DNA of 34,669 nucleotides from an uncultured Acetobacteraceae bacterium (lineage in GTDB: Bacteria; Pseudomonadota; Alphaproteobacteria; Acetobacterales; Acetobacteraceae): assembly GCA_937902425.1 (NCBI GenBank), contig CALFNB010000383.1, positions 1 to 34,669 of the forward strand, given 5' to 3'. Position 1 is the first letter of the stretch. Each line of letters opens with the position of its first letter. Of this stretch, positions 17,269-31,037 are shown one piece after another. The translations under genes and the position numbers were made by a program. Under the pieces are notes generated by a model. The model did no database searches. It was not told the origin of the DNA and saw only the letters and a program-made list of their open reading frames with translations.

Positions 17269-18699
17269 TTACGCGGCCTCGTATCCGATCACCGCCTTGA
17301 TCTCGGTGAAGTCATCGAGCGCCCATTTGCCGTATTCACGACCGTTCCCCGACTGCTTGTAACCGCCAAATGGCGCCGCTGTATCGCCCGCCGCATAGTT
17401 CACGAACACATTCCCCGCCCGCATCTCGGCGGCCACTCGGTTCGCATGCGCGCGGTCGGCGGACTGCACATAGGCCGCGAGGCCATAGACCGTGTCATTC
17501 GCGAGCCGGATTGCTTCCGCTTCGTCCTTGTACGGCAAGATCGAAAGCACCGGACCGAAGATTTCCTCACGCGCGATGGTCATGTCGTTACGCACATTGG
17601 CGAACACGGTGGGGCGAACGAAGTAGCCGCGGTTCAGGTTCTCCGGACGGCCGGGACCGCCGGTGACCAGTTCCGCGCCCTCGTCGATGCCGGCCTGGAT
17701 CAGGCGCTGGATCTTGTTGTACTGAACTTCGCTGACCACCGGACCGAGATTGGTTTTCGGATCGTTGACGTCGCCGACGACAATGCCCTCGGCCGCGGCC
17801 TTGGCGATCGCCTTGACCTCGTCCTGCCGGCCGGCGGGGACGAACATCCGGGTCGGCGCGTTGCACGATTGCCCGCTGTTGCCCATCATGCCGACCACGC
17901 CCTTCGTCACCGCGGTCTGGAAATCCACGTCAGGCAACAGGATGTTGGCCGATTTGCCGCCCAGTTCCTGACAGACCCGCTTGACGGTGGGAGCAGCGGC
18001 CTGGGCTACCAGAATACCGGCACGCGTGGAGCCGGTGAACGACATCATGTCGATATCGGGATGCGCCGACATGGCACTGCCGACCACCGCGCCCTCGCCC
18101 TGCACCATGTTGTAGACACCCGCCGGAACGCCCGCGGCGTGCATGACTTCCGACCAGATGATGGCGTTCAGCGGCGCGACCTCAGAGGGTTTCAGCACCA
18201 TCGTGCAACCGGCCGCGATCCCCGGCGCGACCTTGCAGACGATCTGGTTGATCGGCCAGTTCCAGGGAGTGATCAGACCAACGACACCGATCGGCTCCCG
18301 CGCGATCAAGGTCGAGCCTTCGACATCCTCGAATTTGTAGGTTTCCAGGACCTCGATCATCCGGGTCAAATGGGCGGTGCCGGTGCCGGATTGCGCTCGT
18401 AGCGCGAAGGCGAGGGGGGCACCCATTTCGCGCGACAGGCACTCCGCGATATCCTGACGCCGCTTGTTGTATTCGGACAGAATGGCGCGCAGCAGATCCA
18501 GCCGGTCCTTCCGCGAGGTGCGGGAGAATGCGGGGAACGCGGCTCTCGCGGCGGCGACGGCGCGGTCGACATCTTTCGGGCCACCCACCGCGATCTGGGT
18601 AAAGGCTTCCTCGGTGGAGGGATTGATGACGTCGAGCAGGACGGGCTCCAGCGGGGCCACCCATTGTCCGTTGACGTAGTGCTGTTGTTCATGTGCCAT
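17269..18699 (-). CDS. NAD(P)-dependent aldehyde dehydrogenase
   Basis: This full-length 476-residue aldehyde dehydrogenase has the motifs LITPWNWPINQIVCKVAPGIAAGC, FTGSTRAGI, the general-base Glu in CQELGGKSANI and the catalytic Cys in GNSGQSCNAPTR. The late EEIFGPVLSI and NVFVNYAAGDTAAPFGGYKQSG are also present. The ATG at 18699 follows GGAGGG. The gene is monocistronic or the tail of the Msr group, with a 116-bp gap upstream that holds a ModE-like palindrome and a TATATAA element. The substrate is not evident; methylmalonate or malonate semialdehyde would suit the pyrimidine pathway, but the CoA-acylating type is longer and differs in sequence. Confidence 0.92.
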   Translation of the reverse strand: MAHEQQHYVNGQWVAPLEPVLLDVINPSTEEAFTQIAVGGPKDVDRAVAAARAAFPAFSRTSRKDRLDLLRAILSEYNKRRQDIAECLSREMGAPLAFALRAQSGTGTAHLTRMIEVLETYKFEDVEGSTLIAREPIGVVGLITPWNWPINQIVCKVAPGIAAGCTMVLKPSEVAPLNAIIWSEVMHAAGVPAGVYNMVQGEGAVVGSAMSAHPDIDMMSFTGSTRAGILVAQAAAPTVKRVCQELGGKSANILLPDVDFQTAVTKGVVGMMGNSGQSCNAPTRMFVPAGRQDEVKAIAKAAAEGIVVGDVNDPKTNLGPVVSEVQYNKIQRLIQAGIDEGAELVTGGPGRPENLNRGYFVRPTVFANVRNDMTIAREEIFGPVLSILPYKDEAEAIRLANDTVYGLAAYVQSADRAHANRVAAEMRAGNVFVNYAAGDTAAPFGGYKQSGNGREYGKWALDDFTEIKAVIGYEAA

Positions 18700-18754: not shown

Positions 18755-18778
18755 CGTTATATACTGCCTGACATGACG
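18755..18778. promoter_or_regulatory. ModE-like palindrome (weak copy), upstream of aldehyde dehydrogenase
   Basis: CGTTATAT-N8-ACATGACG matches 12 of 14 defined positions of the ModE operator pattern CGnTATAT-N8-ATATAnCG. It lies 55 bp before the aldehyde dehydrogenase start. On the minus strand the same bases could simply be a TATATAA promoter -10, so the operator call is tentative. Confidence 0.3.
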
Positions 18779-18815
18779 GAGGAAAAGGTCCGCCGCTCTC
18801 GGAAAAGGAACCGCG

Positions 18816-19217
18816 TCAGGCGGGCACGAAATTCATCGCGACTCCATTGATGCAATACCGCAGATTCGTCGGCGGCGGACCGTCGTCGAACACGTGCCCG
18901 AGATGGCTGCCGCAGTTCGCGCAATGGACCTCGGTGCGCACCATGCCGTAGCTTCGATCCACCGACGTTTCCACCGCTCCCTCGATCGGGTCATTGAAAC
19001 TGGGCCAGCCGGTTCCACTCTCGAACTTCCCGTGTGAGTCGAACAGTGGTTGATCGCAGCCGGCACAGGAGAACCGGCCATGCCGCTTTTCCAGCAGCAG
19101 CGCGCAGCTTCCCGGCGCTTCCGTCCCATGATCTCGCATCACGTGATATTGTTCTTGTGTCAGAAGCTGGCGCCATCCGGCGTCGCCGCGTGTCACCGGG
19201 TAAACCTTGTCCGCCAT
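18816..19217 (-). CDS. msrB: Peptide-methionine (R)-S-oxide reductase MsrB
   Basis: The 133-residue enzyme has the two zinc CxxC pairs (FSCAGCDQPLF and HCANCGSHLGHVFDD), the GTGWPSF motif and the catalytic RYCINGVAMNF near the C-terminus. It reduces the R epimer of methionine sulfoxide. There is no signal peptide, so it is cytoplasmic, unlike the upstream MsrA. It begins 44 bp after msrA on the same strand and GGAG precedes the ATG, so the pair probably forms one transcript for repair of oxidised methionine. Confidence 0.94.
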   Translation of the reverse strand: MADKVYPVTRGDAGWRQLLTQEQYHVMRDHGTEAPGSCALLLEKRHGRFSCAGCDQPLFDSHGKFESGTGWPSFNDPIEGAVETSVDRSYGMVRTEVHCANCGSHLGHVFDDGPPPTNLRYCINGVAMNFVPA

Positions 19218-19261
19218 ATCGTGCTGCTCCGTTTGGCGCTGCGTTGTTCGGGAGGGAGTGT

Positions 19262-19993
19262 TTAGTTCCCGGCTGCCGTCTTGACCACCAGCGCCGGTTC
19301 GGTTCGCCAGTTCGCCGGAAACAAGGTCTGCACGGCGCGGACTTTCGGCATGTCGTTGATGGCGATGTACGGCGCGTCCGGATGATGTTCCAGATAATCC
19401 TGATGGTACGCCTCAGCGGGATAGAACGGCCCGGCTGGTTCAATCCGCGTGGCGATCGGACGGCTGAAGGCATGCGCGGCTTCAAGCTGAGCGACATATG
19501 CGCGTGCTACTCGCTCCTGATCCGCGCCACTGACGAACAACGCCGAGCGATACTGGGTTCCCCGGTCCGGGCCTTGCCGATCCACCTGCGTCGGATCGAG
19601 CGCCACGGAAAAGAAGATCTGCAACAGTTTTCCATAACTGATCCGCGTCGGATCGAAGGCCACGCTGACCGACTCGGCATGGCCGGTCGTACCCATGCTC
19701 ACTTGTTCGTAGCCCGGATCGGCGACGCTGCCGCCAGCATAGCCGGAGACCGCCCGCGTGACCCCCTTCACATGCTCGAACACACCCTGCACGCCCCAGA
19801 AGCAGCCTCCGGCGAAGACCGCGACCTCGGTTGCCGATTTGCCGGGCGTTTCGTCCACCGCGGGCGCCGGCAGAGCCTGTGCCGTCTCAGCGGACGTCCG
19901 CGCCATCGGCAGCAGGAAGGCGGCCCCGGCGACCAGACCGGCGGCCACGAGCGCCTGGCGGACGTGGTGCGCGTTCAGGGCGATGCGATACAT
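19262..19993 (-). CDS. msrA: Exported peptide-methionine (S)-S-oxide reductase MsrA
   Basis: The 243-residue protein has an N-terminal hydrophobic export signal (about residues 12-35) before the MsrA fold. The catalytic motif is VAVFAGGCFWG, followed by GYAGGSVADPGYEQVSMGTTGHAESV and ending at AEAYHQDYLEHHP. The mature protein contains only this one cysteine, so the usual recycling cysteines near the C-terminus are missing and reduction must use another route. I started it at the ATG at 19993, six bases after GGAG; an in-frame ATG at 20005 is an alternative. It is followed by msrB. Location in the periplasm is inferred from the signal. Confidence 0.92.
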   Translation of the reverse strand: MYRIALNAHHVRQALVAAGLVAGAAFLLPMARTSAETAQALPAPAVDETPGKSATEVAVFAGGCFWGVQGVFEHVKGVTRAVSGYAGGSVADPGYEQVSMGTTGHAESVSVAFDPTRISYGKLLQIFFSVALDPTQVDRQGPDRGTQYRSALFVSGADQERVARAYVAQLEAAHAFSRPIATRIEPAGPFYPAEAYHQDYLEHHPDAPYIAINDMPKVRAVQTLFPANWRTEPALVVKTAAGN

Positions 19994-20077
19994 GGTTTGC
20001 TCCATTGTCAGCCGAGGGCAACGCACACATGCGTCGAACGGAAGACTCACGATCCCGGCGGACGTTACACGCGTCTC

Positions 20078-21001
20078 TCATGTGAAGTGGGGCATGATAT
20101 CCGACGCGACAAGCTCGTGGGTCTCGCGGTCGTTCCTGAAGGCGCTGCTGATGAGCAGTTGCACGCCGGCATCGCGGTACTGACCGATCAGATCGGTGGC
20201 CTGTGCGACTGTGCCGGAAAAGCCCCGGAACGCCGCGGCGGCGCCGAGCCTTTCGCGTTTCGCCGCCAGCGCCGCCTCGTCTCGAGCCAACAGGAAACTG
20301 GCGATGTTGGTCCGCTCGATCGTTTCGTAGTCCCGCTGCGCGGCTTCGCAATGGCGGCGAAGAACCGCGTACTTGTGCTTCACCATGTCCGGGTCGCCAC
20401 CGACATTGCAGGCATCCGCCAAACGAGCGACCGCGCGCAACGTCAATTGCTCACCGCCGCCGGCGATCATGATGGGCGGCCGCGGTGACGGCTTGGGCTC
20501 CAGGATCGCGTCCCGGACGTGGAAATACTTGCCGGTGAACGTCGATCGCTTCTCCGTCCACATCCCGATGATCAGGCGCACAGCCTCCTCCATCTGGCGA
20601 ATGCGCACCGCGGGGTGGGGTGGGAATTCCCAGCCGTATTGGCGATACTCTTCCTCGAACCAGCCCGCCCCGATGCCGAGGGTGAGCCGTCCCCGGCTGA
20701 TCAGATGGACGCCCGCCGCGATCTTGGCCAGATGCGCGGGATTGCGGAACGCGACCGATGAAACGAGCGTGGCCAGGCGAACCCGGCTGGTCACCGCGGC
20801 GAGCGCCGACAGCACGGTCCAGCCCTCTATGAAAGGTTCGTCCGGCGCGCCGATGTGGCCGATCTGGATCAGGTGGTCCATGACCGAGAACCACGTGAAG
20901 CCATGGTTCTCGGCCCATTGCGCTTTGGCCTTCACACCCTCGAACGCTTCCGCGGGGTCGGGGCCAAAGATCCATGATGGATTGTGAATGCCAAACTTCA
21001 T
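20078..21001 (-). CDS. LLM-class flavin/F420-type oxidoreductase (luciferase-like)
   Basis: This 307-residue luciferase-like monooxygenase fold protein has these landmarks: MKFGIHNPSWIFGPDPAEAF, WFSVMDHLIQIG, LGIGAGWFEEEYRQYGWEFPP in the middle and PPIMIAGGGEQLTLRAVARLADACNVGG for cofactor phosphate binding. It resembles the F420-dependent TIGR03560-like group, although many proteobacterial members use FMN. AGGAG lies eight bases before the ATG. It precedes msrA by 84 bp on the same strand, so co-transcription is possible. The substrate is unknown. Confidence 0.88.
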   Translation of the reverse strand: MKFGIHNPSWIFGPDPAEAFEGVKAKAQWAENHGFTWFSVMDHLIQIGHIGAPDEPFIEGWTVLSALAAVTSRVRLATLVSSVAFRNPAHLAKIAAGVHLISRGRLTLGIGAGWFEEEYRQYGWEFPPHPAVRIRQMEEAVRLIIGMWTEKRSTFTGKYFHVRDAILEPKPSPRPPIMIAGGGEQLTLRAVARLADACNVGGDPDMVKHKYAVLRRHCEAAQRDYETIERTNIASFLLARDEAALAAKRERLGAAAAFRGFSGTVAQATDLIGQYRDAGVQLLISSAFRNDRETHELVASDIMPHFT

Positions 21002-21156
21002 GACGAGCGCTCCTGGTTCAGGCCGGCGATGGTCTTACACGAAAAAGTCTGGCTCGGCGTGATCCCCGATCCGCGATCCCTCGAAGCCAGGTTGCGTCCG
21101 GAGGTGGCCATATCTGACGTCCCTGGGCCGCTTCCATCTATCTGGGCTTACTGCTA

Positions 21157-21180
21157 CGCTATGAAAAATGATATACAGCG
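21157..21180. promoter_or_regulatory. ModE-like palindrome (weakest copy) in the gap upstream of the LLM oxidoreductase
   Basis: CGCTATGA-N8-ATACAGCG matches 11 of 14 defined positions of CGnTATAT-N8-ATATAnCG. It shares the flanking TACGCTAT with the box at 29719. It sits in a 224-bp non-coding gap, 155 bp before the oxidoreductase start. The rest of the gap shows no gene. Confidence 0.3.
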
Positions 21181-21225
21181 TCAGCGTGCCAGAGGTCCGA
21201 ATGTTAAGTAAGTTTCGGCTTCTCC

Positions 21226-21936
21226 TCAGCCGCGTGCCGCCTGAATTGCCTGCCAGATCCGATGCGGCGTCGCCGGCATGTCGATATGCGTGATGCCAAA
21301 TTCCGACAGCGCATCGACCACCGCGTTCATCACCGCCGGAAGCGAACCCGCGCAACCCGCCTCCCCGCGGCCTTTGGCGCCAAGCGGATTGGTGCGCGCC
21401 GGAACCGGGTGACTCTCAACGCCCAGTGTGGGAAGGTCGGAAGCACGCGGCAGTCCGTAGTCCACCGCGCTGGCGGTCGTGACCGCGGGCAACTGGTCGA
21501 TATCGACAAAGATCGCCTCGGCCGCGTCCTTGGCCTCCTTGTTCGTTTCCGCCACGACCATCGCGATCGGTTCGCCGACATACCGGACACGATCGGTCGC
21601 CAACGGCCGCTGCGGCGGGCGTGGCGTGGGAGAGCCATCGCGGTGCTTGCCCGCCGCCGCCGGCATGTTTTTGATCCCCGCCGCGTCCAGGTCGGCGAGC
21701 GTGATCCCGGCGCGGACGCCAGGCATCTCGCGTGCGGCTTCGGTGTCGATTGACCGCAATATCCCGTGCGCGACCCGGCTTCGCACCATCACACCATAAA
21801 GCTGCCCGGTACGATTGAGGTCATCGCTATAGCGGCCCTCGCCACGTAACAGAACCGGATCCTCCATGCGTGAGACCGGCTGACCGACGGCGAGCTTCTC
21901 AGTGAACCGCAAGGACGGATCGAACGGCGCATTCAT
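21226..21936 (-). pseudogene. Molybdoenzyme large subunit (xanthine dehydrogenase/aldehyde oxidase family) with a large internal in-frame deletion
   Basis: The 236-residue frame joins two distant parts of a family whose members are normally about 750-800 residues. Residues 1 to about 156 are the N-terminal domain (GQPVSRMEDPVLLRGEGRY, GVMVRSRVAHGILRSID, RVRYVGEPIAMVVAETN). From about residue 158 the sequence jumps to the extreme C-terminus ([47 protein letters not shown]). The molybdopterin- and substrate-binding core is absent, so the product cannot be catalytic. The break is near 21465-21475. No FAD or 2Fe-2S partner gene lies alongside. A ModE-like box precedes the start. Confidence 0.8.
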
Positions 21937-21979
21937 CGTGAAAGACACTTTCGTGACCGAAGGCGCGCGAGGTGCGCTT

Positions 21980-22003
21980 CGCGATATACACCAAAATATA
22001 ACG
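21980..22003. promoter_or_regulatory. ModE-like operator upstream of the molybdoenzyme remnant
   Basis: CGCGATAT-N8-ATATAACG matches 13 of 14 defined positions of the ModE palindrome. It occupies the gap between modC and the deleted molybdoenzyme gene, 43 bp before the latter's ATG. Such boxes upstream of molybdoenzyme genes are known from other ModE regulons. Confidence 0.6.
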
Positions 22004-22017
22004 TCGGAGCGCAACCC

Positions 22018-23097
22018 TTAGCCGCCGAGCACCTCGATCGAGGTGGATTTGATCAGCGCCAGGACCGGCCCGCCCAGAGACAGCGCCAGGCGGGTAATGG
22101 CGTCGGGCGTGACCCGGGCCAGCAGCGCGCCGTCCGCCAGCGCGATCTCCACCATCACCGCTCGCCGCGCGGGATCTCCCGCGATCCGGCGAACGGTTCC
22201 GGCAATGATGTTGTGCAGGCTTATGGCATCCGGCGCCCGACGGGCGAGGATGACTTCGCGCGCCGGAATGCGAATACGGCACGCGGCGCCAACCTCGGCA
22301 TCCAGCAACGGCACCAGGAACGTCGCACCGCCCGCATCCAGGCGGGTGAGTTGACGGCCAACGTCGTGCTCGGCCACGCGACAATGCAGCAGTCCGGCGG
22401 CATCATCCCGCAGCGCCAGCGGCAGGTCGGCGCGTGCCGCCATCTCCGCCAACGGACCGAAGCCAACCACGTGGCCGGCCTCAATCAGCACCATCGAGTC
22501 GGCGAGCCGCGTCAACTCATCAAGGTCGTGGGTCACGTACAGGACCGGCAGCCGCAGCGCTGTCTTCAGGCGTGTCAGCCAGGGCAAAATCTCCGACTTG
22601 CGCGCGGAGTCCAGGCTGGCCAAAGGTTCGTCCATTAACAGCAACTGAGGTTGCGCCAGCAGGGCGCGCCCGATTGCCACACGCTGACGCTCGCCGCCCG
22701 ACAATGTGTTTGGCCGGCGATCGAGCAACGCGGCGATACCCAATAAATCCACGACGTCATCAAATCGAATCGTTCCGGGACGGGCGCGCCGCATGCCGAA
22801 ACGCAGATTGGTCGCGACTGACATATGCGGGAACAGCCTTGCGTCCTGAAACACCAGGCCGGTGCGGCGTTGTTCCGGCGGCAACCACATTCCGGTTTCG
22901 GTGTCGGCCATTATCTGGCCATCGACCTCAATCCGGCATTCGTTGGGTCGCAGCAGGCCGGCGGCGGCGAGAATGATCGTTGACTTGCCAGCGCCCGACG
23001 GGCCGAACAGCACCGTCACGCCAGCGGACGGGACCTCAAACGCCATATCGATACGCGCCGAGGGAAAGTCGTGACGCAACCGGACCGACAGACTCAT
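22018..23097 (-). CDS. modC: Molybdate ABC transporter ATP-binding protein ModC
   Basis: The 359-residue ATPase has Walker A FGPSGAGKSTII, Q-loop FQDARLFPHMSV, signature NTLSGGERQRVAIGRALL, Walker B LLLMDEPLASLD and H-loop YVTHDLDE. A C-terminal TOBE domain (about residues 285-355, with SLHNIIAGTVRRI) binds oxyanion and can gate transport. The order modA-modB-modC and the TOBE domain identify the molybdate importer. It starts at the ATG in an ATGA overlap with modB; the frame open to 23133 lies within modB. Confidence 0.94.
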   Translation of the reverse strand: MSLSVRLRHDFPSARIDMAFEVPSAGVTVLFGPSGAGKSTIILAAAGLLRPNECRIEVDGQIMADTETGMWLPPEQRRTGLVFQDARLFPHMSVATNLRFGMRRARPGTIRFDDVVDLLGIAALLDRRPNTLSGGERQRVAIGRALLAQPQLLLMDEPLASLDSARKSEILPWLTRLKTALRLPVLYVTHDLDELTRLADSMVLIEAGHVVGFGPLAEMAARADLPLALRDDAAGLLHCRVAEHDVGRQLTRLDAGGATFLVPLLDAEVGAACRIRIPAREVILARRAPDAISLHNIIAGTVRRIAGDPARRAVMVEIALADGALLARVTPDAITRLALSLGGPVLALIKSTSIEVLGG

Positions 23098-23783
23098 CTG
23101 CCGAGTGCCACGTTCAATCGCTTCCCCAGCCACTCCGACAGCAACAGTCCGATCAAAGCGAGGGTCAGCGATATCAGCGACAGTTCCGCGGCCTTCTGTT
23201 CGCCGCCTGGCACCTGCAGCGCGGCGTAGATCGCCAGCGGCAACGTCTGCGTCTGACCCGGGATGTTGGCGGCGAAGGTGATCACCGCGCCGAACTCGCC
23301 GAGGCAGGTGGCGTAGCCGACGATCCCGCCGACCAGGATCCCCGGGGAGGCCAGCGGCAGGGTCACGTTGAACAACCGGTCCAACCGCCCCGCGCCGAGG
23401 GTACGCGCGGCCTGCTCAAGACCGGGATCAACGGCCTCCAACGACAGCCGGACGGACCGCACCATCACCGGGAACGTCATGACGGCACAGGCGAGGCTGG
23501 CGCCCGCCGTGGTGAAGACCAGTCGAATATCGAACCACGCCAACAGCAACGATCCAATCGGCCCGCGAATGCCGAACAGGATCAGCAGCAGCCAGCCCGT
23601 AACGACCGGAGGCAGCACCAGCGGCAGATGCACCAGCGCGTTCAGCAGCGACCGCCCAGGGAAGCGGTAACGCGTCAAAACCCAGGCCATCACGACCGCG
23701 AGCGGCAGGCCGAAGCCAACCGCGCGCGCCGCGACGACCAAAGTGAGCCGAACGGCTTCCCATTCTTCAGGCGAGAGGATCAG
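23094..23783 (-). CDS. modB: Molybdate ABC transporter permease ModB (probable CTG start)
   Basis: The permease has the ModB hallmarks HLPLVLPPVVTGW, DPGLEQAARTLGAGRLDRLFNVTLPLASPGI and GEFGAVITFAANIPGQTQTLPLAIY. No ATG, GTG or TTG occurs between the upstream in-frame stop and the TTG at 23741, which would give only 215 residues. Starting at the CTG at 23783 gives 229 residues and restores ILSPEEWEAVRLTL, which aligns from its first residue with the N-terminus of E. coli ModB (MILTDPEWQAVLLSL, also 229 residues, from memory). CTG lies one base after the modA stop with AAGG nine bases upstream. ATGA overlap with modC. Confidence 0.88.
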   Translation of the reverse strand: MILSPEEWEAVRLTLVVAARAVGFGLPLAVVMAWVLTRYRFPGRSLLNALVHLPLVLPPVVTGWLLLILFGIRGPIGSLLLAWFDIRLVFTTAGASLACAVMTFPVMVRSVRLSLEAVDPGLEQAARTLGAGRLDRLFNVTLPLASPGILVGGIVGYATCLGEFGAVITFAANIPGQTQTLPLAIYAALQVPGGEQKAAELSLISLTLALIGLLLSEWLGKRLNVALGR

Positions 23784-23784
23784 G

Positions 23785-24531
23785 TCATTCGACCTTGAAG
23801 CCGCGTTGCACGAACACCTCGCGCGCGGGGGGACTGGTCAGGAAGGCGAGCAAAGCGTGCGCCTCGGCCGTGTCGCCCGATTTGGTGACCGCGAATGGAT
23901 ACGAGACCGGATCGTGGCTGTCGGCCGGGAAAGTTCCGGCGATCATGACGGCCTTCGAGACCGCGGCGTCAGTGGCGTAAACGATACCCGCGGGTGCCTC
24001 ACCGCGTTCCACCAGCAACAATGCGGCGCGCACGTCTTCCGTCCGGGCCAGTTTCGGGGAAATGCTGTCCCACATACCAAGCTTCCTGAGCGCCTGCTCG
24101 GCATAAATTCCGACCGGAACATGTGCCGGATCGCCGGTCGCCAGCCGTCCGTTGGCACCCAAAAGAGCCGCCAGGTCGAAGCTTTTGTTGATCGTTACGT
24201 GCACCGGCCTGGCGGTGGCGACCACCAGCACGAGATCGTTGCCAAGCAGACTTTTCCGCGTGCCGGCGGCGATCAGTTGCTTCTCCACCAGATAGTCCAT
24301 CCATTTTTCGTCGGCTGAGGCGAACACGTTCGCCGGTGCGCCTTGCTCGACTTGTCGCGCCAGAGTCGAACTCGATCCGAACGACATCCGCAACGGTTGA
24401 TGTCCCGCCGCCGCCCATTTCACGGAAATATCCTTCATCGCGTCGGTCAAACTCGCCGCCGCGAACACCGTCACCTCCTGCGCGCGCGCGGCGAGCGGCA
24501 GCAGAACAATCAAAACGTACAGCAAACGCAT
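23785..24531 (-). CDS. modA: Molybdate-binding periplasmic protein ModA
   Basis: The 248-residue protein begins with a short signal peptide (MRLLYVLIVLLPLAARAQ), then EVTVFAAASLTDAMKDI, the conserved first oxyanion-binding loop. FGSSSTLARQVEQGAPANVFASADEKWMD (second loop) and GDPAHVPVGIYAEQAL follow, then GIVYATDAA. These are standard ModA features. It captures molybdate or tungstate in the periplasm for ModBC. It lies 11 bp after the BtuF-like binding-protein gene and immediately before modB. Confidence 0.95.
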   Translation of the reverse strand: MRLLYVLIVLLPLAARAQEVTVFAAASLTDAMKDISVKWAAAGHQPLRMSFGSSSTLARQVEQGAPANVFASADEKWMDYLVEKQLIAAGTRKSLLGNDLVLVVATARPVHVTINKSFDLAALLGANGRLATGDPAHVPVGIYAEQALRKLGMWDSISPKLARTEDVRAALLLVERGEAPAGIVYATDAAVSKAVMIAGTFPADSHDPVSYPFAVTKSGDTAEAHALLAFLTSPPAREVFVQRGFKVE

Positions 24532-24542
24532 GACGGAACCTC

Positions 24543-25532
24543 TCAGGGTTGGATGGAGCGGACGCCGCCGAGCACGGCATCAAGTCGCGGGGGTGTCAGA
24601 GCATGGCCATAGACCACCGCGTGGAACGTCGCCGCCATGCTCGCGGGTTCATGACCGCCCAGAAAAGCGAGGCCGAGCAACCGGTTGATCGACGGCGGTT
24701 CCTCGATCCAACCGAATGGCAAGCCAGGCGCGACCAAGGCATGGCCTTCCCGGATCGCCCGCACGGATTTCCAGGTGTCGGAGTGCGCCAGGGTCTCGCG
24801 CATCGCCGGGTCGGAGAAAATCACGATATCCGGATCGAGGGCGCCGATCGCCGCGATGGTGGAGGCGCGGAACGTACCTTGGCCATCCGGCGCGATCACT
24901 TGCCAACCGAGGTGTTTGAACACCTCGGTCACGTCGGTGTCGGGCGCGGTGACCGTCAGGCCGTCCGCGCCACGCGCGTACAGGACGCGGGGATGCGCGC
25001 CCAACGAGGCGAGCAACGGAATAACCGGCAACGCGAGCATCGCCTCCACGAAGGTCGCCAGCGTTTCGGCGCGTGCCTCCCGGTGCGGAATGGCCCCTGC
25101 CTCGCGAATGACCCGCGGAATGTTGTCGAGTGAACCGGCGAACAGCAGGGTTGGAATGCCGGTCTTTTGCTGGGTCGCCTGGGCCAGTTCGATATAGCGC
25201 GGCGTCACTTCGCCGTAGTCGATGATCAGGTCCGGCTTCAGCGCCTTGATCTTGTCCGTCACATCTTCTCGCCCGGTCAGGCGGGGAATGCGCGGATGAT
25301 TGGCGTTGTCCGGGAGTAATGCCTTTGCGTCGTCGGACAACGGTCCAGGCCAGCCGAGCATCAGATCCGGGGCGATGGCCTCAAGCAAGATGGCGGCGGG
25401 TGGGCCAGCCGGCAACACATGCAGGACCTTATCGGGAATTTGGACTGCTCGGCCGGTGGAATCGGTCACCTCGGCCGCCAACGCGACACCTGAACAAAGC
25501 AGCGGCAGAAGCAATATCAGACGGCGGAGCAT
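24543..25532 (-). CDS. BtuF/TroA-fold (class III) ABC substrate-binding protein heading the mod operon
   Basis: The 329-residue product has a signal peptide (MLRRLILLLPLLCSGVALA) and the Fe3+-siderophore/cobalamin binding-protein layout: VTDSTGRAVQIPDKVLHVLPAGPPAA, then IPRLTGREDVTDKIKALKPDLIIDYG, and a C-terminal lobe with IAAIGALDPDIVIFSDPA. No FecCD/BtuC-type permease is nearby. It is the first gene of the mod operon, just after the ModE box. H. influenzae MolA, which has this fold, binds molybdate and tungstate, so a similar ligand is plausible here. The ATG at 25532 was chosen for the signal peptide; the longer frame upstream crosses the operator. Confidence 0.82.
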   Translation of the reverse strand: MLRRLILLLPLLCSGVALAAEVTDSTGRAVQIPDKVLHVLPAGPPAAILLEAIAPDLMLGWPGPLSDDAKALLPDNANHPRIPRLTGREDVTDKIKALKPDLIIDYGEVTPRYIELAQATQQKTGIPTLLFAGSLDNIPRVIREAGAIPHREARAETLATFVEAMLALPVIPLLASLGAHPRVLYARGADGLTVTAPDTDVTEVFKHLGWQVIAPDGQGTFRASTIAAIGALDPDIVIFSDPAMRETLAHSDTWKSVRAIREGHALVAPGLPFGWIEEPPSINRLLGLAFLGGHEPASMAATFHAVVYGHALTPPRLDAVLGGVRSIQP

Positions 25533-25552
25533 ATTGGTCTCAATGTTTGTCA

Positions 25553-25576
25553 CGGTATATGCCGGTCGATATAGCG
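25553..25576. promoter_or_regulatory. ModE operator upstream of the mod operon
   Basis: CGGTATAT-N8-ATATAGCG matches all 14 defined positions of the ModE pattern CGnTATAT-N8-ATATAnCG. The half sites are inverted repeats with one mismatch. It begins 20 bp before the first mod gene and faces the divergent modE-like gene. Molybdate-loaded ModE bound here would block transcription of the operon. Confidence 0.75.
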
Positions 25577-25631
25577 GCAATACGCCGCGAGGGAAATCCC
25601 GCATGGCGACGCATCGAGTGGGCGCTGCTCG

Positions 25632-25673
25632 CCATGGGCTACGATATGTCCCATGGGCAACGACATGTCGTTG
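25632..25673. repeat. Two 19-bp direct repeats and a 16-bp palindrome upstream of modE
   Basis: CCATGGGCTACGATATGTC (25632-25650) is followed at once by CCATGGGCAACGACATGTC (25651-25669), 17 of 19 bases identical. The second copy runs into a perfect palindrome, CAACGACATGTCGTTG (25658-25673). They lie in the 231-bp gap between the mod operon and modE, separate from the ModE box, and may bind another factor. Confidence 0.7.
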
Positions 25674-25763
25674 TCGTCTCGGCACGCCTGGGCGACAGCG
25701 CGGAGGCCACCGGGGCACGCGTATGATTGATCCTGGGCTCCGGTCGTGTTTGGGTATCTTGTC

Positions 25764-26144
25764 ATGCCGAAGAAAAAACAGAAATCCGAGGAATCGGGCA
25801 ATGCCGGCGATCGCCTGAACATCAGGATCGATTTGGCGGGCGGGCTGCGAATTGGGCCAGGGAAGATCGCCGTGCTGGAGGAAATTGCACGGTCAGGTTC
25901 CATTTCCGCTGCCGGGCGGGCCTTGCGCATGTCCTATCGCCGGACGTGGGAACTCGTCGAGGACCTGAACACCGGTCTCGGCGCTCCGGTCGTTGAAACC
26001 GCGGCCGGCGGCAGTGGTGGCGGTGGCACGGTGTTGACCCAGGCGGGAAAGGCGGTCATCGAGCGCTACCGTGCGATTGAGGTCGATGCGGCGGCGGCGG
26101 CGCGAAAGCATTTGCTTGCGCTTAACCGCTTCCGCGCTAAGTAG
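25764..26144 (+). CDS. ModE-type DNA-binding domain protein, lacking molybdate-binding domains
   Basis: The 126-residue protein consists of the ModE N-terminal winged helix: LGGLRIGPG-like LAGGLRIGPGKIAVLEEIARSGSISAAGRALRMSYRRTWELVEDLN, then TAAGGSGGGGTVLTQAGKAVIERYRAIE. It stops where the two Mop/TOBE domains of E. coli ModE would begin. The separate Mop protein encoded 24 bp downstream could supply molybdate sensing. The lysine-rich start MPKKKQK was chosen at ATG 25764; a GTG six codons upstream is possible. It is divergent from the mod operon. Confidence 0.88.
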   Translation: MPKKKQKSEESGNAGDRLNIRIDLAGGLRIGPGKIAVLEEIARSGSISAAGRALRMSYRRTWELVEDLNTGLGAPVVETAAGGSGGGGTVLTQAGKAVIERYRAIEVDAAAAARKHLLALNRFRAK

Positions 26145-26168
26145 GGTGCTTCCCGACGGAGGCCTGTG

Positions 26169-26375
26169 ATGAAACTTTCCGCCCGCAACCAGATCGCCGG
26201 CACGATCAAAACCGTGAAACCAGGTGCCACGACCTCGCACATCACGATCGAGGTGTCGCCCACGGTGACGATCACCGCTTCCATCACCAACGAGTCCGCT
26301 GAGGAGCTTGGTTTGAAGCCCGGTATGAAGGCCACCGCCGTGATCAAGGCTTCCGACGTGATGGTCGGCGTCTGA
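26169..26375 (+). CDS. Mop: small molybdate-binding TOBE-domain protein
   Basis: The 68-residue protein is a single Mop/TOBE domain: MKLSARNQIAGTIKTVKPGATTSHITIEV, then ITNESAEELGLKPGMKATAVIKASDVMVGV. Such molbindins assemble into hexamers holding several molybdates. GGAGG lies six bases before the ATG. It is 24 bp after the ModE-like gene, so the pair is likely co-expressed and may form a split ModE. Its TGA directly abuts the stop of the convergent DUF2325 gene. Confidence 0.93.
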   Translation: MKLSARNQIAGTIKTVKPGATTSHITIEVSPTVTITASITNESAEELGLKPGMKATAVIKASDVMVGV

Positions 26376-27716
26376 TTACACAACAGACGCGGCGGCGGCT
26401 AACGGCTGCGGCGCCGCGAGAAACGATGTCGCGCTGGCGGACCGCAGAGGGATAAAGCGCCTGGCCGTCTGGCGGCACAGGCGCTTGACCATCAGCGCGG
26501 CGTCGTGACTGACGCAGTCCACCGGGAACAGCACGATATCGGCGCGTGACGTCAGGCCGGCCAGCAGGTCGGGATGATGTTCGATGCCGCCGTCATGGTG
26601 CAGGAGTTCCGCGCCCCGGCTTTCGGACAGCGCGCGGAGATGCGCGACCTGATTGGGACTGCCGCCGACATAGAGGAACGAAATTCCGTCTATCCGCCAG
26701 AGAGGCTCCGCGTTCTCCGGCTGAAGGTCGGCCTCGACCGCGGCAAGCTCAGCGCGTAACGATGTGGCCTCGGCTTCCAGCGCACCGCGTGCCGCGCGTT
26801 CTCGCGCCAGGTCATCGCGCGTTTCCGCTCCACGCGCTTCGACCGCCATGCGGCGACGGCTTTCGGCGGCGAGCCGCTTTTCCAGATCGGCGGCAAGCGC
26901 TCGCAAGGCGGCGGTTTCATCGCCGGCGGCGACCGGTGCTTCGTCCGTCAGCCGTTGGCGCAGGGATTGGCGCAAATCGCGGATACTGGCGTCGCGCGTG
27001 ACGACGGCCTGGTGCAACGCCTCCTGCTGACGACGCAGCTTTGCCTCCAGTTCGGCGTTGCGCTGTTCGAGATCGCACAGACGCCGGATGTCCGCGCGGT
27101 TCGCGGCACCGACAAGGTGTGACAGCATGTGCACTTCACCAAACACCAGCCGCACCAACGCCGGTGTCGTGGCGGGATGGGTCAGCACAACCCAGTACGC
27201 ACCCGGAATATCGCCTCGTTTCACGGCATCGCGCCACAGCGCGGTCAGCTCCGCCTCCGTTCGTGCTTTGCCGAACTGGCTGATCGGCAGTTTATGCCGC
27301 CGATCCAGCGCCTTGTGCAGCAGCTTCGCGGCCTGATCGTGCTTCGCCGCGAGGCTTACCGCCTTGTGATGCAAATCGTGATCGGTCCAATCGCTCTGTG
27401 CCAGGCCGAGGCGGGTGAGGGTCTGACGTAGCTCCCCGGTCGAGAGGCACGTGCCGAGGATGGAACAATGCAGATTCTGGCTAAATTCCCAGATCTTGGT
27501 GCGCCGCGTCGACGAGTCTTCCAGGTCCTCGGTCTGGGCTGGCGCGGGCCGCCGCACAAGCCGCGGCGGTAGCGGAGACAGAGCGAACTGATGCCGGTGA
27601 TCGCATCGCGGTTCATCGATGCGAATGGCGGATTGATCGTCATCGGTCCGTGGCGTCATCGCGAGCCCGCGGCCCCGCGCATACGGTGCGAAAACCGAAT
27701 ATCCCGTGTCCGCCAT
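26376..27716 (-). CDS. DUF2325 protein with central coiled coil
   Basis: The 446-residue protein has an N-terminal helical part (about 90-215, including DHDLHHKAVSLAAKHDQ), a long Ala/Glu/Arg-rich coiled coil (about 220-330) and a C-terminal DUF2325 domain. The conserved sequences of that domain are ISFLYVGGSPNQVAHLRAL, LLHHDGGIEHHPDLL, VLFPVDCVSHDAALMVKRLC and FIPLRSAS. The many conserved His, Asp and Cys residues suggest metal or cofactor binding, but no function is established to my knowledge. GGGGGAG precedes the ATG at 27716. It is convergent with, and touches, the mop gene. Confidence 0.85.
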   Translation of the reverse strand: MADTGYSVFAPYARGRGLAMTPRTDDDQSAIRIDEPRCDHRHQFALSPLPPRLVRRPAPAQTEDLEDSSTRRTKIWEFSQNLHCSILGTCLSTGELRQTLTRLGLAQSDWTDHDLHHKAVSLAAKHDQAAKLLHKALDRRHKLPISQFGKARTEAELTALWRDAVKRGDIPGAYWVVLTHPATTPALVRLVFGEVHMLSHLVGAANRADIRRLCDLEQRNAELEAKLRRQQEALHQAVVTRDASIRDLRQSLRQRLTDEAPVAAGDETAALRALAADLEKRLAAESRRRMAVEARGAETRDDLARERAARGALEAEATSLRAELAAVEADLQPENAEPLWRIDGISFLYVGGSPNQVAHLRALSESRGAELLHHDGGIEHHPDLLAGLTSRADIVLFPVDCVSHDAALMVKRLCRQTARRFIPLRSASATSFLAAPQPLAAAASVV

Positions 27717-27789
27717 GGAACAACAACTCCCCCGATGCCGTATTCTGATGGGTATAACGCAAGGTTGCGCTTCGCCCGGGGCGATGCGA

Positions 27790-29000
27790 TCAGAGACCAG
27801 CCTGGGTGACGAACTTTGTGTTGAGATAACCCTCGATCGCCTCCAGGCCGCCTTCTGAGCCGTAGCCGGAATCTTTCACACCTCCGAACGGTACTTCCGG
27901 CAGCGCGAGACCATGGTGATTGATCGAGATCATACCACTCTCCAACGCCGCCGCGATCGCGTTCGCGGTCTTGGCGGAGCGCGTGTAGGCGTGGGAGGCG
28001 AGGCCGTATGGCAACCGGTTTGCTTCCGTCACGACCTCATCGAACCCGCTGAATGGAGCGATCACCGCGAGCGGACCGAACGGTTCCTCATGCATGACCC
28101 GCGCGTCCTTCGGCACGTCGGTGATGACGGTCGGTTCGAAGAAGTTGCCTTTGTTGCCGATTCGGTTGCCTCCGGTTCTGACGGTGGCGCCCTTTCGCGT
28201 GGCGTCGCCGATGAACATCTCCATCGCGGCGATGCGCCGAGGGTTGGCCATCGGGCCCATGGTGGTGGACGTTTCCATTCCGTCACCAACCCGCGGCGCG
28301 TTCGCATGGCCGACGAACGAGTCGACGAATTGCTCGTACACTTTCTCCTGGATCAGGAACCGCGTGGGTGACACGCAGACCTGACCGGCATTGCGGAATT
28401 TGGCACCCGCCAGCAGCCGGCTCGCGGTTTCGACATCGGCGTCGTCGAACACGATGGCCGGAGCGTGACCGCCCAGTTCCATGGTGACGCGCTTCATGTG
28501 GCGACCGGCGAGGGCGGCGTGTTGCTTGCCGACGGCGGTGGAACCGGTGAACGACATCTTCTTGATGATCGGGTGCGGAATGAGATATTCCGAGATCTCC
28601 GCTGGCACGCCGTAGACGAGATTGATGACGCCCGCGGGAACGCCGGCATCGGCGAAGCAACGGATCAACTCGGCGGGCGAGGCGGGGGTTTCTTCCGCCG
28701 CCTTGACGATGATCGAGCAACCCGCCGCCAGCGCGATGGAAAGTTTCCGCACCACCTGATTGATCGGAAAGTTCCATGGCGTGAACGCCGCCACTGGGCC
28801 TACCGGTTCCTTGACCACGAGCTGGTAGATGCCGTCCGCCCGCGCGGGAATGACGCGGCCGTAGGAGCGGCGGGCTTCCTCGGTGAACCAGTCGATGACG
28901 TCGGCGCAGGCCATCACCTCGCCCTTGGCCTCGGGCAATGGCTTGCCTTGCTCCCGCGTCAGGTAGGGCGCGATCGTGTCGGCACGGGAGCGCAACAGGT
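27790..29000 (-). pseudogene. Succinate-semialdehyde dehydrogenase-like gene, 5'-truncated
   Basis: From about 29000 to its stop the frame encodes a GabD-like dehydrogenase: [49 protein letters not shown], METxGGHAP-type [16 protein letters not shown], catalytic Cys in [11 protein letters not shown], and [14 protein letters not shown] at the end. The usual first 65-70 residues (NAD-binding start) are missing. The frame stays open to 29376, but that extension is unrelated and lies antisense to the TrmO-like gene. The break coincides with the start of another gene fragment on the opposite strand. The active-site residues are intact, yet no proper start remains, so function is doubtful. Confidence 0.75.
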
Positions 29001-29002
29001 CG

Positions 29003-29133
29003 GCGGCTATGCCATCACCACCAGCACGCCGGCCGGCGACAACGGCAAGAACGCGATCCTGCGCTACTATCTGGTGGCGACCAATGCGACAGGACAACAA
29101 TCGGTTGTTTCGCTCGGCGAAGTCGATCCCAAG
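29003..29133 (+). pseudogene. Fragment of a probable molybdopterin-domain-like secreted protein
   Basis: About 43 codons read [20 protein letters not shown] then [20 protein letters not shown] and VDP. This Ser/Thr/Gly-rich pattern resembles the end of oxidoreductase molybdopterin-like secreted proteins (motif N-xxLRxYxVATxxxGxxxVxSLGEIDP). It begins exactly where the dehydrogenase on the other strand breaks off and loses similarity near 29133. The family call rests on recalled motif similarity and is tentative; that this is a gene fragment is more secure. Confidence 0.4.
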
Positions 29134-29203
29134 GTCCGGAGCGGCGCGGGAATCCCGTCCGCTGTTTCTGGCCCGCGTCGGCGCCTTGTGGTACGCTGAT
29201 GCG

Positions 29204-29674
29204 ATGACAAACGGTTCTTCCGATCCCGATATGGAGCCGCGCCCAGGAGAGGTGGCGGTCGAATTGCCGGCACGTACTGATGCGGGCGTGTATTTCATTG
29301 GCGTTATCCACACTCCATGGAAAACGCGAAGCGAGTGTCCGAAGCGAGGCAAGGAAGACGGATCGATCTGCACCATCGTGATCGATGAACGCTGGCACGC
29401 GGCGCTGACCGGTCTGGCGGGTCACCGGCGCATTCAGGTGCTGTACTGGATGCATCGCGCGCGCCGCGATCTCGTGTTGCAGACACCGTTCCGGACGGGG
29501 CGGACGACCGGAACATTTGCCTTGCGTTCGCCGGTCCGGCCGAACCCCATCGCTTCGTCCTTCGTGGAACTGGTGGCGGTCGAGGGCGGGACATTGCAGG
29601 TGCGCGGGCTTGATTGTCTCGATGGGACGCCGCTTATCGATTTGAAACCGGATCACGCGGCCACCGGGCACTGA
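29204..29674 (+). CDS. TrmO-like tRNA (t6A37) methyltransferase family protein
   Basis: The 156-residue protein matches the TrmO/YaeB beta-barrel family: [19 protein letters not shown] at the start, [19 protein letters not shown], then [27 protein letters not shown] and [20 protein letters not shown]. coli TrmO methylates t6A37 in tRNAThr using SAM. Here the short form without the extra C-terminal domain is present, as in many bacteria. The ATG at 29204 has a poor ribosome-binding site and an ATG at 29231 is an alternative. It is intact although both neighbouring regions are broken genes. Confidence 0.85.
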
Positions 29675-29718
29675 ACGAATTTTCGTGCGCGTGCCGTGGG
29701 TGGACTTTTCGCGCGCTA

Positions 29719-29742
29719 CGCTATATACAGTCAGAAATAGCG
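29719..29742. promoter_or_regulatory. ModE-like operator upstream of the gene at 29759
   Basis: CGCTATAT-N8-AAATAGCG matches 13 of 14 defined positions. The inverted repeat extends one pair of bases further on each side (TACGCTAT at 29717-29724 with ATAGCGTA at 29737-29744, perfect). It ends four bases before GGAGGG, the ribosome-binding site of the next gene, so a bound regulator would block that transcript. Confidence 0.6.
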
Positions 29743-29758
29743 TATGGAGGGACACGGA

Positions 29759-30007
29759 ATGGATCGCGTGCCGGACAGTTTCGCATACATCGAAGGTCGA
29801 AAGCTCACCACATGGGCTGTCCTTCCGGGCGGCGAACAAGTTTGCCTTGGCTTCGCGGCCATCGGCGGCGAGACGTATCGCATCGTGTTGCCGCTCGACG
29901 CATTGACCGGATTGCTGATGACCCTGCCGAACATGTTGCAATCGGCACTGAATGAACGTTTCCCCGACAGCACGTTACGTGTCGTGCATCCACTCGGCGA
30001 ATCATCA
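29759..30007 (+). pseudogene. Hypothetical gene, apparently missing its 3' end
   Basis: A good ribosome-binding site (GGAGGG) precedes ATG 29759. The first 80 or so residues look genuine: MDRVPDSFAYIEGRKLTTWA, then LPGGEQVCLGFAAIGGETYRIVLPLDALTGLL and ERFPDSTLRVVHPLGE. From about 30000 the frame passes antisense through an intact Rmf-like gene and then out of frame through an RND gene, staying open to 30973 with Arg-rich sequence. I infer that the 3' end was lost at a deletion point just before 30008. I do not recognise the family. Its promoter carries a ModE-like box. Confidence 0.55.
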
Positions 30008-30193
30008 TTATACCCGGCCCAATCTTACGGCGCGCCTGGTTTCATCACTCTTCCTCTGCCATCCGCGCTGCCACTCGGCATGGCGGATCGTGCCGCGAGG
30101 ACAGGGATTGTCGGAAAGTCTCCGTCCGGCTTCGGCCGCCAGGTAACCCTCGTCCTCCTCCTTATGAGGGTTGAAAGAGGTTGCATCAGTCAT
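30008..30193 (-). CDS. Rmf/CrpP-type small protein (ribosome modulation factor-like)
   Basis: This 61-residue basic protein contains the ribosome modulation factor pattern: EDEGYLAAEAGRRLSDNPCP, with Cys31-Pro32, then Trp41 and Trp45 in AEWQRGWQRK. E. coli RMF dimerises 70S ribosomes in stationary phase, and related CrpP proteins have been linked to quinolone modification. The start at 30193 is supported by GGGAGG six bases upstream. The frame is also open further upstream, but without a ribosome-binding site. It lies between a truncated hypothetical gene and a truncated RND gene, and is antisense to extensions of both. Confidence 0.7.
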   Translation of the reverse strand: MTDATSFNPHKEEDEGYLAAEAGRRLSDNPCPRGTIRHAEWQRGWQRKSDETRRAVRLGRV

Positions 30194-30269
30194 CAAGGCC
30201 CTCCCGATCGTCCATTTATCCGTCAATCCGCCGGCACTCGGCCCGGCCGGCGAACCCGTGCCGTATGCG

Positions 30270-31037
30270 AGTGGCGTCGTCCAGATACCGCTCATGGACG
30301 TCGCGAATGTACGGCTGACCTCCGGCGCGGCGTTCATTTATCGCGAGAAGCAAGAACACTACATCCCGATCAAATTCAGCGTGCGCGGCCGCGACCTCGG
30401 TACCACCGTGCTCGAAGCGCGAAAGCGGATCGCCGATGCGGTGCTGTTGCCAGGAGGCTATCACATGGACTGGGTCGGCGAGTTCGGCAATCCGCGGGAC
30501 GCGATAGGCCGGCTCGCGATCGTGGTGCCGCTGGCGATCGTGCTGATTTGTCTGTTGTTGTACATCAACTTCGGCTCCCTGACCGACATGCTGCTGGCGG
30601 CAAGCGTCATTCCGATGGCGTTGATTGGCGGTATTTTCGCCTTGTACTTCACCGGAACGCCGTTCAGCGTTTCGGCGGCGATCGGATTTGTCGCGCTGTT
30701 CGGCATATCCGCCATGGATGGCATCATCGTGCTCACATACTTCAATCAGGCACTGGAGAGCGGCATCGATCGCGGTGCCGCCATTCTCCGCACGTGTCAG
30801 GTTCAGTTTCGCCCGGTGATGATGACGTGCGTCGTGGCGGCCGTCGGTCTCGCCCCCGCGGCGGTGTCCACTGGTATCGGCTCACAGGTGCAACGGCCAC
30901 TGGCGCTGGTCGTGGTCGGTGGCATACTGCTGGCGCCGGTGCTGATCCTGATCGTGCTCCCGGTGCTGATTGACCTGTTCTCCCGCGGGGAAACGGTCGA
31001 AGGCGAGTTGACCGTTCCACTCGAGCTGGCGGAATAA
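30270..31037 (+). pseudogene. RND efflux pump (CzcA/HME-like), C-terminal quarter only
   Basis: From about codon 30276 the frame matches the last 250 or so residues of heavy-metal RND pumps, normally about 1,040 residues long. It begins in the second periplasmic domain (VVQIPLMDVANVRLTSGAAF, KFSVRGRDLGTTVLEA). Membrane segments follow (IVLICLLLYINFGSLTDMLLA, FALYFTGTPFSVSAAIGFVALFGISAMDGIIVL), then FRPVMMTCVVAAVGLAPAAVSTGIGSQVQRPLA. The N-terminal three quarters are gone, and the region upstream is the promoter of the Rmf-like gene on the other strand. It cannot pump. The gene for its outer-membrane partner follows after 3 bp. Confidence 0.8.

Follow-up and report, generated by a model that had tools for sequence, protein, structure and literature searches.

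A putative ModE-box regulon of molybdate uptake and aldehyde dehydrogenase genes in a genus of Acetobacteraceae

The DNA considered here, called the window, is a stretch of 34,669 nucleotides from an uncultured Acetobacteraceae bacterium (assembly GCA_937902425.1, contig CALFNB010000383.1). It carries a mod operon for molybdate uptake, a divergent gene for a ModE-like regulator, and several copies of a ModE-type 24-bp palindrome, here called a box. The mod operon lies on the minus strand. It is headed by a gene for a periplasmic binding protein (24543-25532; PF01497), as it is in several relatives too. This gene is followed by modA (23785-24531; TIGR01256), modB (23094-23741; TIGR02141, NF006939) and modC (22018-23097; TIGR02142), whose start is approximate and whose product has a TOBE domain (PF03459). 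On the plus strand, modE (25764-26144) is followed by mop (26169-26375).

The gap between the two divergent units holds a box at 25553-25576, 20 bp before the start of the binding-protein gene and 187 bp before that of modE. It matches the pattern CGnTATAT-N8-ATATAnCG at 14 of 14 defined positions, and many relatives have a box in the equivalent gap between binding-protein or mod genes and modE. When both strands of the window are scanned with this pattern and up to 3 mismatches are allowed, only five sites are found: 25553 with none, 21980 and 29719 with 1 each, 18755 with 2 and 21157 with 3. These are exactly the palindromes, with the same match counts, that an earlier note on this DNA had listed. 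The note considered so many matches unlikely by chance, and indeed 100 dinucleotide shuffles of the window give a mean of 0.20 sites and a maximum of 2. The spacings that it gave for three boxes, 20, 43 and 16 bp, are correct for the binding-protein gene (start at 25532), a CoxL-like remnant (21936) and an open reading frame (ORF) at 29759. With these starts the five sites do lie in non-coding gaps, as claimed; a home-made gene caller ran the binding-protein gene across 25553 by over-extending its start.

The motif equals the 24-base core of the E. coli ModE consensus, ATCGNTATATA-N6-TATATANCGAT (PMC545781, PMC2700814). The window has operators of the form CGNTATATA-N6-TATATANCG: the box at 25553 fits all 14 positions defined in the earlier note's pattern, and those at 21980 and 29719 fit them with one mismatch each.

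The product of modE consists of the DNA-binding half of ModE only, 126 amino acids (aa) long from the given start. Its match to TIGR00637 (E 4e-25) scores 87.8 bits, below the curated cut-off of 98.5. It aligns to the PDB entries 2ijl (E 1.1e-21) and 1b9m (E 9.3e-12), so that a ModE-type winged-helix DNA-binding domain is present. The full ORF of 132 aa contains one helix-turn-helix domain, with no Mop domains fused to it. A stand-alone molybdate-binding domain of 68 aa is instead encoded by mop, 24 bp past modE; it matches TIGR00638 above the cut-off (E 3.9e-21) and resembles PDB 1h9j. Because the DNA-binding domain stands alone and Mop is a separate gene, the regulator is best described as a single-domain ModE-like protein and not as a canonical ModE.

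In the genus at large, none of 33 genomes contains a TIGR00637 match above the curated cut-off, and among the matches listed for them no Mop match overlaps a ModE place. The nearest relatives of the regulator come from metagenome-assembled genomes labelled Acetobacteraceae and Rhodopila, and from Rhodopila globiformis. A stand-alone Mop above the cut-off occurs in 11 of the 33 genomes. A strong ModE match is present in 23 of the genomes, several of which are incomplete; 10 of these 23 have such a Mop and 13 do not. The remaining Mop-type matches listed are mostly in long frames such as ModC. Since this ModE has no sensor domain, molybdate would be sensed by Mop, by the TOBE domain of ModC, or by another protein.

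The genome to which the window belongs (G000) is a draft of 6.82 Mb in 667 contigs, with 89% completeness. With up to 1 mismatch it contains three sites, every one in the window. With up to 2 mismatches it contains eight, of which four lie within the 34.7-kb window, and a reversed-pattern control gives three. Of the four outside sites, L135 among them, two are inside DNA called as coding, and for the other two no gene start is called within 300 bp; together they are at about background level. As the sites concentrate in the window and the others are near background, the regulon of this draft genome looks like a single island. The word "local", which the earlier note used for the regulon, can thus be kept for the own genome. 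It does not hold for the genus, in which boxes also occur on contigs or stretches without mod genes.

Weaker boxes can be found with a matrix. A first model, R1, was too strict (in the own genome it gave no match at E ≤1), and a home-made symmetric matrix was used instead. Its training set comprised 22 boxes from the neighbourhood of mod, binding-protein or modE genes, one from the window (25553) and 21 from other loci; the training box of L139 sits 0.8 kb from modB. At a score of at least 12 the window yields six sites, namely the five above and one at 27736-27759, while 300 shuffles of the window give a mean of 0.06 and a maximum of 1. The strong boxes score 27.0 (29719), 25.2 (25553, itself a training box) and 20.1 (21980). 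Three sites are weak (18755 with 12.9, 21157 with 12.4 and 27736 with 12.2), and of these only 18755 and 27736 have support from orthologs.

The earlier note proposed a genome scan with such a matrix that would compare gaps with coding DNA. This comparison has been made in 28 close ModE loci, which were fetched by protein and not by box; at the scale of whole genomes the count covers a few pattern sites only. At a score of at least 12, the 28 loci have 34 matches in 70 kb of non-coding DNA versus 3 in 392 kb of coding DNA. The densities are 0.486 and 0.0076 per kb, a 64-fold difference and far from the equal density that the note took as grounds for rejecting the regulon. Training and test overlap here: the 37 matches include 16 of the 22 training boxes, and when these are subtracted, 19 non-coding and 2 coding matches remain. 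The gene calls come from a home-made script, trained on the codon usage of window genes, that over-extends some starts.

A scan of 59 genomes with up to 1 mismatch, the own genome included, covered the 33 genomes of the genus. These contain 49 sites, versus 10 matches to the reversed pattern (summed counts). Only 7 of the 49 lie in called coding DNA, though coding calls cover 83% of the fetched genus loci, and two of the seven (25553 in the window and one in L140) adjoin mod promoters, where a gene start was probably called too far upstream. G002, G011, G017 and G019 have matches within a coding gene of roughly 261 aa, equated by length and neighbours and not by alignment; these matches were judged to be chance. 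The sites follow the regulator: the 23 genomes with a strong ModE have 45 of them and the 10 without have 4 (Mann-Whitney p 0.001; G014, whose ModE matches are weak, is counted among the latter). At least one site is present in 19 of the 23 genomes versus 4 of the 10 (Fisher p 0.035). At the level of sequence, these comparisons support a ModE-type regulon that is common to this genus, with the boxes as its probable operators.

Which genes have a box? The non-coding sites of the genus precede mod, binding-protein or modE genes in many genomes. Other targets are several types of aldehyde dehydrogenase (ALDH1, ALDH2 and ALDH3-type), CoxL, a molybdopterin oxidoreductase, aldo/keto reductases, a short-chain dehydrogenase, and genes without an evident link. 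Family labels in relatives come mostly from BLAST to window or locus proteins, and Pfam was applied to 20 box-associated proteins. DUF2478 genes recur beside boxes in L187, L195, L196, L197 and L198 (a Pfam match in L187, L196 and L198; a similar sequence start in L195 and L197), and DUF2478 is a candidate molybdenum-linked family. In G008 a threonine synthase gene is preceded by two boxes, one base apart (L149, 4024-4072).

The frequency of boxes in each family was counted in the 28 close ModE loci, as a score of at least 12 within 150 bp upstream; loci L114-L153 and L185-L202, mostly fetched for holding boxes, were excluded. A box is found at 7 of 8 binding-protein genes, 12 of 26 ModE genes, 5 of 16 ModA genes and 1 of 4 TrmO genes. 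It is also found at 5 of 6 ALDH2 genes, 4 of 4 ALDH3-type genes, 4 of 5 DUF2325 genes (three of these four boxes being shared with divergent ALDH3-type genes) and 3 of 5 sulfite-oxidase-like genes; the counts for CoxL, ALDH2, ALDH3 and DUF2325 derive from loci fetched for other reasons. All other genes together have 2 boxes in 325, before a binding-protein fragment and a ModA-like gene. The box thus demonstrably recurs before ALDH1, ALDH2, ALDH3-type, DUF2325 and sulfite-oxidase-like genes, and in fewer cases before CoxL-like and molybdenum-storage genes.

In the window, the box at 18755-18778 (12 of 14 positions) lies 55 bp before ALDH1 (17269-18699, minus strand), an NAD(P)-type aldehyde dehydrogenase (PF00171, E 1e-151). 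ALDH1 was found in 6 of 32 genomes searched, and in loci fetched by ALDH1 itself the box stands upstream in 6 of 6, the own genome included. The orthologous boxes score 15.3 to 19.2, and 25.9 in L035. The earlier note's suggestion of an aldehyde dehydrogenase under box control thereby gains support. It had also placed the hypothetical gene at 29759 in the regulon. There the box at 29719-29742 (13 of 14) lies 16 bp before the start, and it recurs 16-17 bp upstream of both orthologs detected in 31 other genomes, which likewise favours the claim. The boxes that the note assigned to the mod operon and to the molybdoenzyme remnant stand as well: the former recurs before orthologs in other genomes, and the latter, at 21980-22003 (13 of 14), 14 bp past the modC stop and 43 bp before the remnant, recurs before an intact ortholog in G025. 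In that genome (L202) modC is followed by a CoxL gene of 784 codons with a box of score 31.2, 29 bp upstream.

A survey of aldehyde dehydrogenases in the own genome and in G004, G022 and G025 gives a sense of how far such control may extend. These genomes have 5, 6, 15 and 14 matches to PF00171, of which 3, 3, 6 and 13, 25 in all, were counted as full length. For 12 of the 25 (five in G025, four in G022, two in G004 and one in G000), a box scoring at least 11.8 lies no more than 150 bp from the gene or from the first gene of its operon. This fraction is inflated because G004, G022 and G025 were picked for boxes already known at ALDH genes. Two more genes of G025 have boxes of 10.3 and 10.0. 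Several types of NAD(P)-aldehyde dehydrogenase recur as putative ModE-box targets. No published link between ModE and aldehyde dehydrogenase was recognised among the papers listed by searches of a literature collection, which lacks most subscription journals and in which "ModE" is confounded with "mode".

The position of the boxes suggests how they might act. In the 34 promoters examined, LLM aside, the distance from box to start codon is 7-87 bp. In 13 of 21 rows for mod and binding-protein promoters (counted by eye) a single base separates a TTG from the box, so that the CG at the start of the box would also form the end of a -35 hexamer, TTGnCG. ORF 29759 and several ALDH3-type genes have TGGAC 18-21 bp before the box (exactly at -20 in 5 of 61 rows), a spacing that would put the -10 inside the box. 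In the ALDH1 promoters of L161 and L162, TTGCCC is seen by eye 17 bp ahead of the TATATA of the box. By eye, no such geometry is discernible in the aligned upstream rows of CoxL. With these predicted -35 and -10 elements, the box looks like a repressor site.

The boxes are probably operators through which, at high molybdate, the single-domain ModE would repress both the uptake of molybdate and the oxidation of aldehydes by molybdenum-free enzymes. Under this model, ModE would bind boxes over the core promoter when molybdate is plentiful, and transcription would be blocked. When molybdate is scarce, the uptake genes and the molybdenum-free aldehyde dehydrogenases would be released. The release of the latter would amount to a molybdenum-sparing switch, analogous to anfA repression in Rhodobacter capsulatus. 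We infer the direction of control and the sparing role; repression by molybdate is expected because of the precedent of MopA and MopB in R. capsulatus.

Genuine ModE operators could also work in the opposite sense, with ModE activating the enzyme genes when molybdate is present. ModE of E. coli activates at some operons and one box can serve both signs, and the presence of molybdoenzyme genes among the targets would fit activation. Activators usually bind further upstream, however, than 7-87 bp before a start codon, and many of the boxes overlap -35-like or -10-like elements. The geometry is also alike at ALDH and mod genes, and the latter are expected to be repressed. Activation is therefore unlikely as the general rule.

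A second possibility is that ALDH and other genes were copied or moved beside mod operators and that their boxes have no function. Many boxed ALDH genes are indeed near mod genes (L202 and L193), and the island in the window looks partly decayed. Such hitchhiking would hardly keep the ALDH1 box in 6 of 6 genomes, of whose loci L158, L161 and L162 have no mod gene in the 4.4 kb covered. Nor would it explain the box of an ALDH3-type gene in G025 that lies on a different contig (C85) from the modE and modBC of that genome. We regard it as improbable. That another regulator reads the palindrome, or that the palindrome is no more than an AT-rich promoter element, is very unlikely given its match to the ModE consensus, its location in the mod-modE gap, its co-occurrence with ModE and its excess over the reversed pattern, even though ModE binding is predicted here and two convincingly boxed genomes have no detected strong ModE.

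Several observations weigh against repression by ModE as the whole explanation, a reading that is itself drawn from the comparison of sequences. The two genomes just mentioned are G011 and G014; conversely, 4 of the 23 ModE genomes (G007, G009, G013 and G021) lack a site with up to 1 mismatch. In the close loci, the threshold used above leaves 14 of 26 ModE genes and 11 of 16 ModA genes without a box; some of the ModA genes stand behind a binding-protein gene. Intergenic boxes also precede genes without a known molybdenum link, such as threonine synthase and a YjgF-like gene. CoxL-like, sulfite-oxidase-like and molybdopterin oxidoreductase genes are boxed too, at 20-102 bp, and a pure molybdenum-sparing switch would give no reason to expect this. 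The boxes of molybdenum-storage genes are distant. One is 261 bp upstream of a homolog of the beta subunit, MosB, in G024 (L142, 4297-5106; E 1.5e-151 to PDB 2ogx_B), and the other is 243 bp upstream of a gene 94% like it in G005 (L134, 4276-5088). Because the genomes are related, their orthologs are not independent. Finally, a candidate role is all that can be assigned to the aldehyde dehydrogenases as stand-ins for molybdenum hydroxylases.

A broader form of the repression model can be put forward tentatively. Here the sensor-less ModE would run a molybdenum-sparing aldehyde programme in which a battery of NAD(P)-dependent aldehyde dehydrogenases replaces molybdenum hydroxylases, and molybdate would be sensed in trans by varied partners. 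A shortage of molybdate might also release aldo/keto reductases and short-chain dehydrogenases in some of the genomes. Each of the 33 genomes has 6 to 30 matches to MoCoBD_2, which suggests that molybdenum hydroxylases are abundant; the 21 matches in the own genome point to a high demand for molybdenum there. Sensing in trans by different partners is proposed because only some of the ModE genomes have a stand-alone Mop.

The ModE family is already known, and the targets and the split regulator mark the system described here as a variant of it. The system is like that of E. coli in its 24-bp core palindrome, its homologous DNA-binding domain (1b9m) and its mod transporter target. It differs in that the regulator ends after the DNA-binding domain and in that NAD(P)-aldehyde dehydrogenases are prominent targets. 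A similar single-domain ModE-like protein is that of PDB 2ijl, a "Molybdenum-binding transcriptional repressor" of 135 aa from Agrobacterium.

In R. capsulatus, MopA and MopB with molybdate repress mopA-modABC, morAB and anfA, which encodes the activator of the iron-only nitrogenase, through Mo-boxes (PMC6925177). That system and the present one are alphaproteobacterial Mo-box systems in which molybdate silences a molybdenum-free alternative, if repression is correctly inferred here. The alternative there is a nitrogenase, whereas the candidate here is aldehyde oxidation. MopA and MopB carry molybdate-binding domains, which the regulator here does not.

A ModE made of the DNA-binding domain only is also described for two Desulfovibrio species and D. 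psychrophila, and the same source calls the mechanism of sensing in Desulfovibrio unclear (PMC545781). The operator predicted for Desulfovibrio is CGGTCACG-N14-CGTGACCG (PMC545781), unlike the E. coli-type operator found here. Geobacter ModE has a broad predicted regulon beyond uptake, and its sites decay after ModE is lost (PMC2700814). The predicted targets named for it differ from those here: a CoA-transferase, tRNA, transport systems and nucleases (PMC2700814).

Cofactors are known to repress enzymes that can do without them. Zinc offers one precedent. Others are cobalamin, nickel and iron (PMC545781). For molybdenum, nitrogenases provide such a case (PMC6925177), and a switch in aldehyde oxidation, if true, would extend sparing to general carbon metabolism. 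The supply of molybdate would then alter the choice of aldehyde-detoxifying enzymes in these Acetobacteraceae. With 10 ModE genomes that have a stand-alone Mop and 13 without, the genus is a natural comparison set for ModE sensing without a molybdate-binding domain.

The regulon is wider than the earlier note proposed, and its weak link is the gene for an LLM-class oxidoreductase. The note overlooked the DUF2325 site, the several ALDH types across the genus, and the missing molybdate-binding half of the regulator. The LLM gene (20078-21001; TIGR03560), msrA (19262-20050; PF01625) and msrB (18816-19217; PF01641) follow one another on the minus strand. The candidate box at 21157-21180 (11 of 14), 155 bp before them, is not conserved at LLM orthologs and is the least certain of the window boxes. 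None of 14 LLM genes (12 from relatives, that of the window and a paralog in the own genome) has a box of score at least 12 within 150 bp upstream, and direct control of LLM is accordingly not supported. The LLM gene of G029 has a box 200 bp upstream, and six others follow a DUF2478 or TrmO gene that has a box and is read from the same strand.

MsrA and MsrB might also replace molybdenum-dependent methionine sulfoxide reductases without needing the metal themselves. The idea is attractive, but by the same threshold boxes occur at 0 of 4 and 0 of 2 MsrA genes and at 0 of 3 and 0 of 4 MsrB genes in two sets of loci. In G009 (L186) a boxed ModE gene is followed by an MsrB gene, another MsrB gene is 120 bp from a box in G014, and an MsrA gene is 210 bp from a box in L061.

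Other parts of the window appear damaged. The CoxL-like molybdenum hydroxylase large subunit (21226-21936, minus strand) has an in-frame internal deletion. Aligned to a 783-aa ortholog with PF02738 and PF20256, it retains only PF01315 and lacks both domains that bind the molybdenum cofactor. ALDH2 (27790-29007, in a stretch of 27790-29376, minus strand) matches positions 60-461 of the PF00171 profile, its 5' end is not homologous to orthologs, and the matrix scan gives no box of score at least 12 there. The ORF at 29759 (29759-30097 searched, plus strand) resembles its relatives over residues 9-84 only. Both orthologs are followed, with a one-base overlap, by a 495-aa aldehyde dehydrogenase, in place of which the window has a C-terminal fragment of an RND pump (30171-31037, plus strand; positions 784-1018 of the PF00873 profile). 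The departure of the ORF past residue 84 and the lone RND piece, within 29759-31037, may reflect a rearrangement or an assembly join. Taken together, the CoxL deletion, the lost ALDH and the truncated homology of ALDH2 suggest that the island is partly decayed, or that the draft assembly is faulty there.

A comparable arrangement is seen in G029 (L117, 4008-4455), where a box near-identical to the CoxL box of G025 precedes the 116-aa gene that in G025 comes after CoxL, which looks like a further loss of CoxL. The weak candidate sixth box of the window, 27736-27759, lies 19 bp before a DUF2325 gene (26376-27716, minus strand; PF10087). The window also contains a tRNA-Ala (CGC) on the minus strand at 5895-5966.

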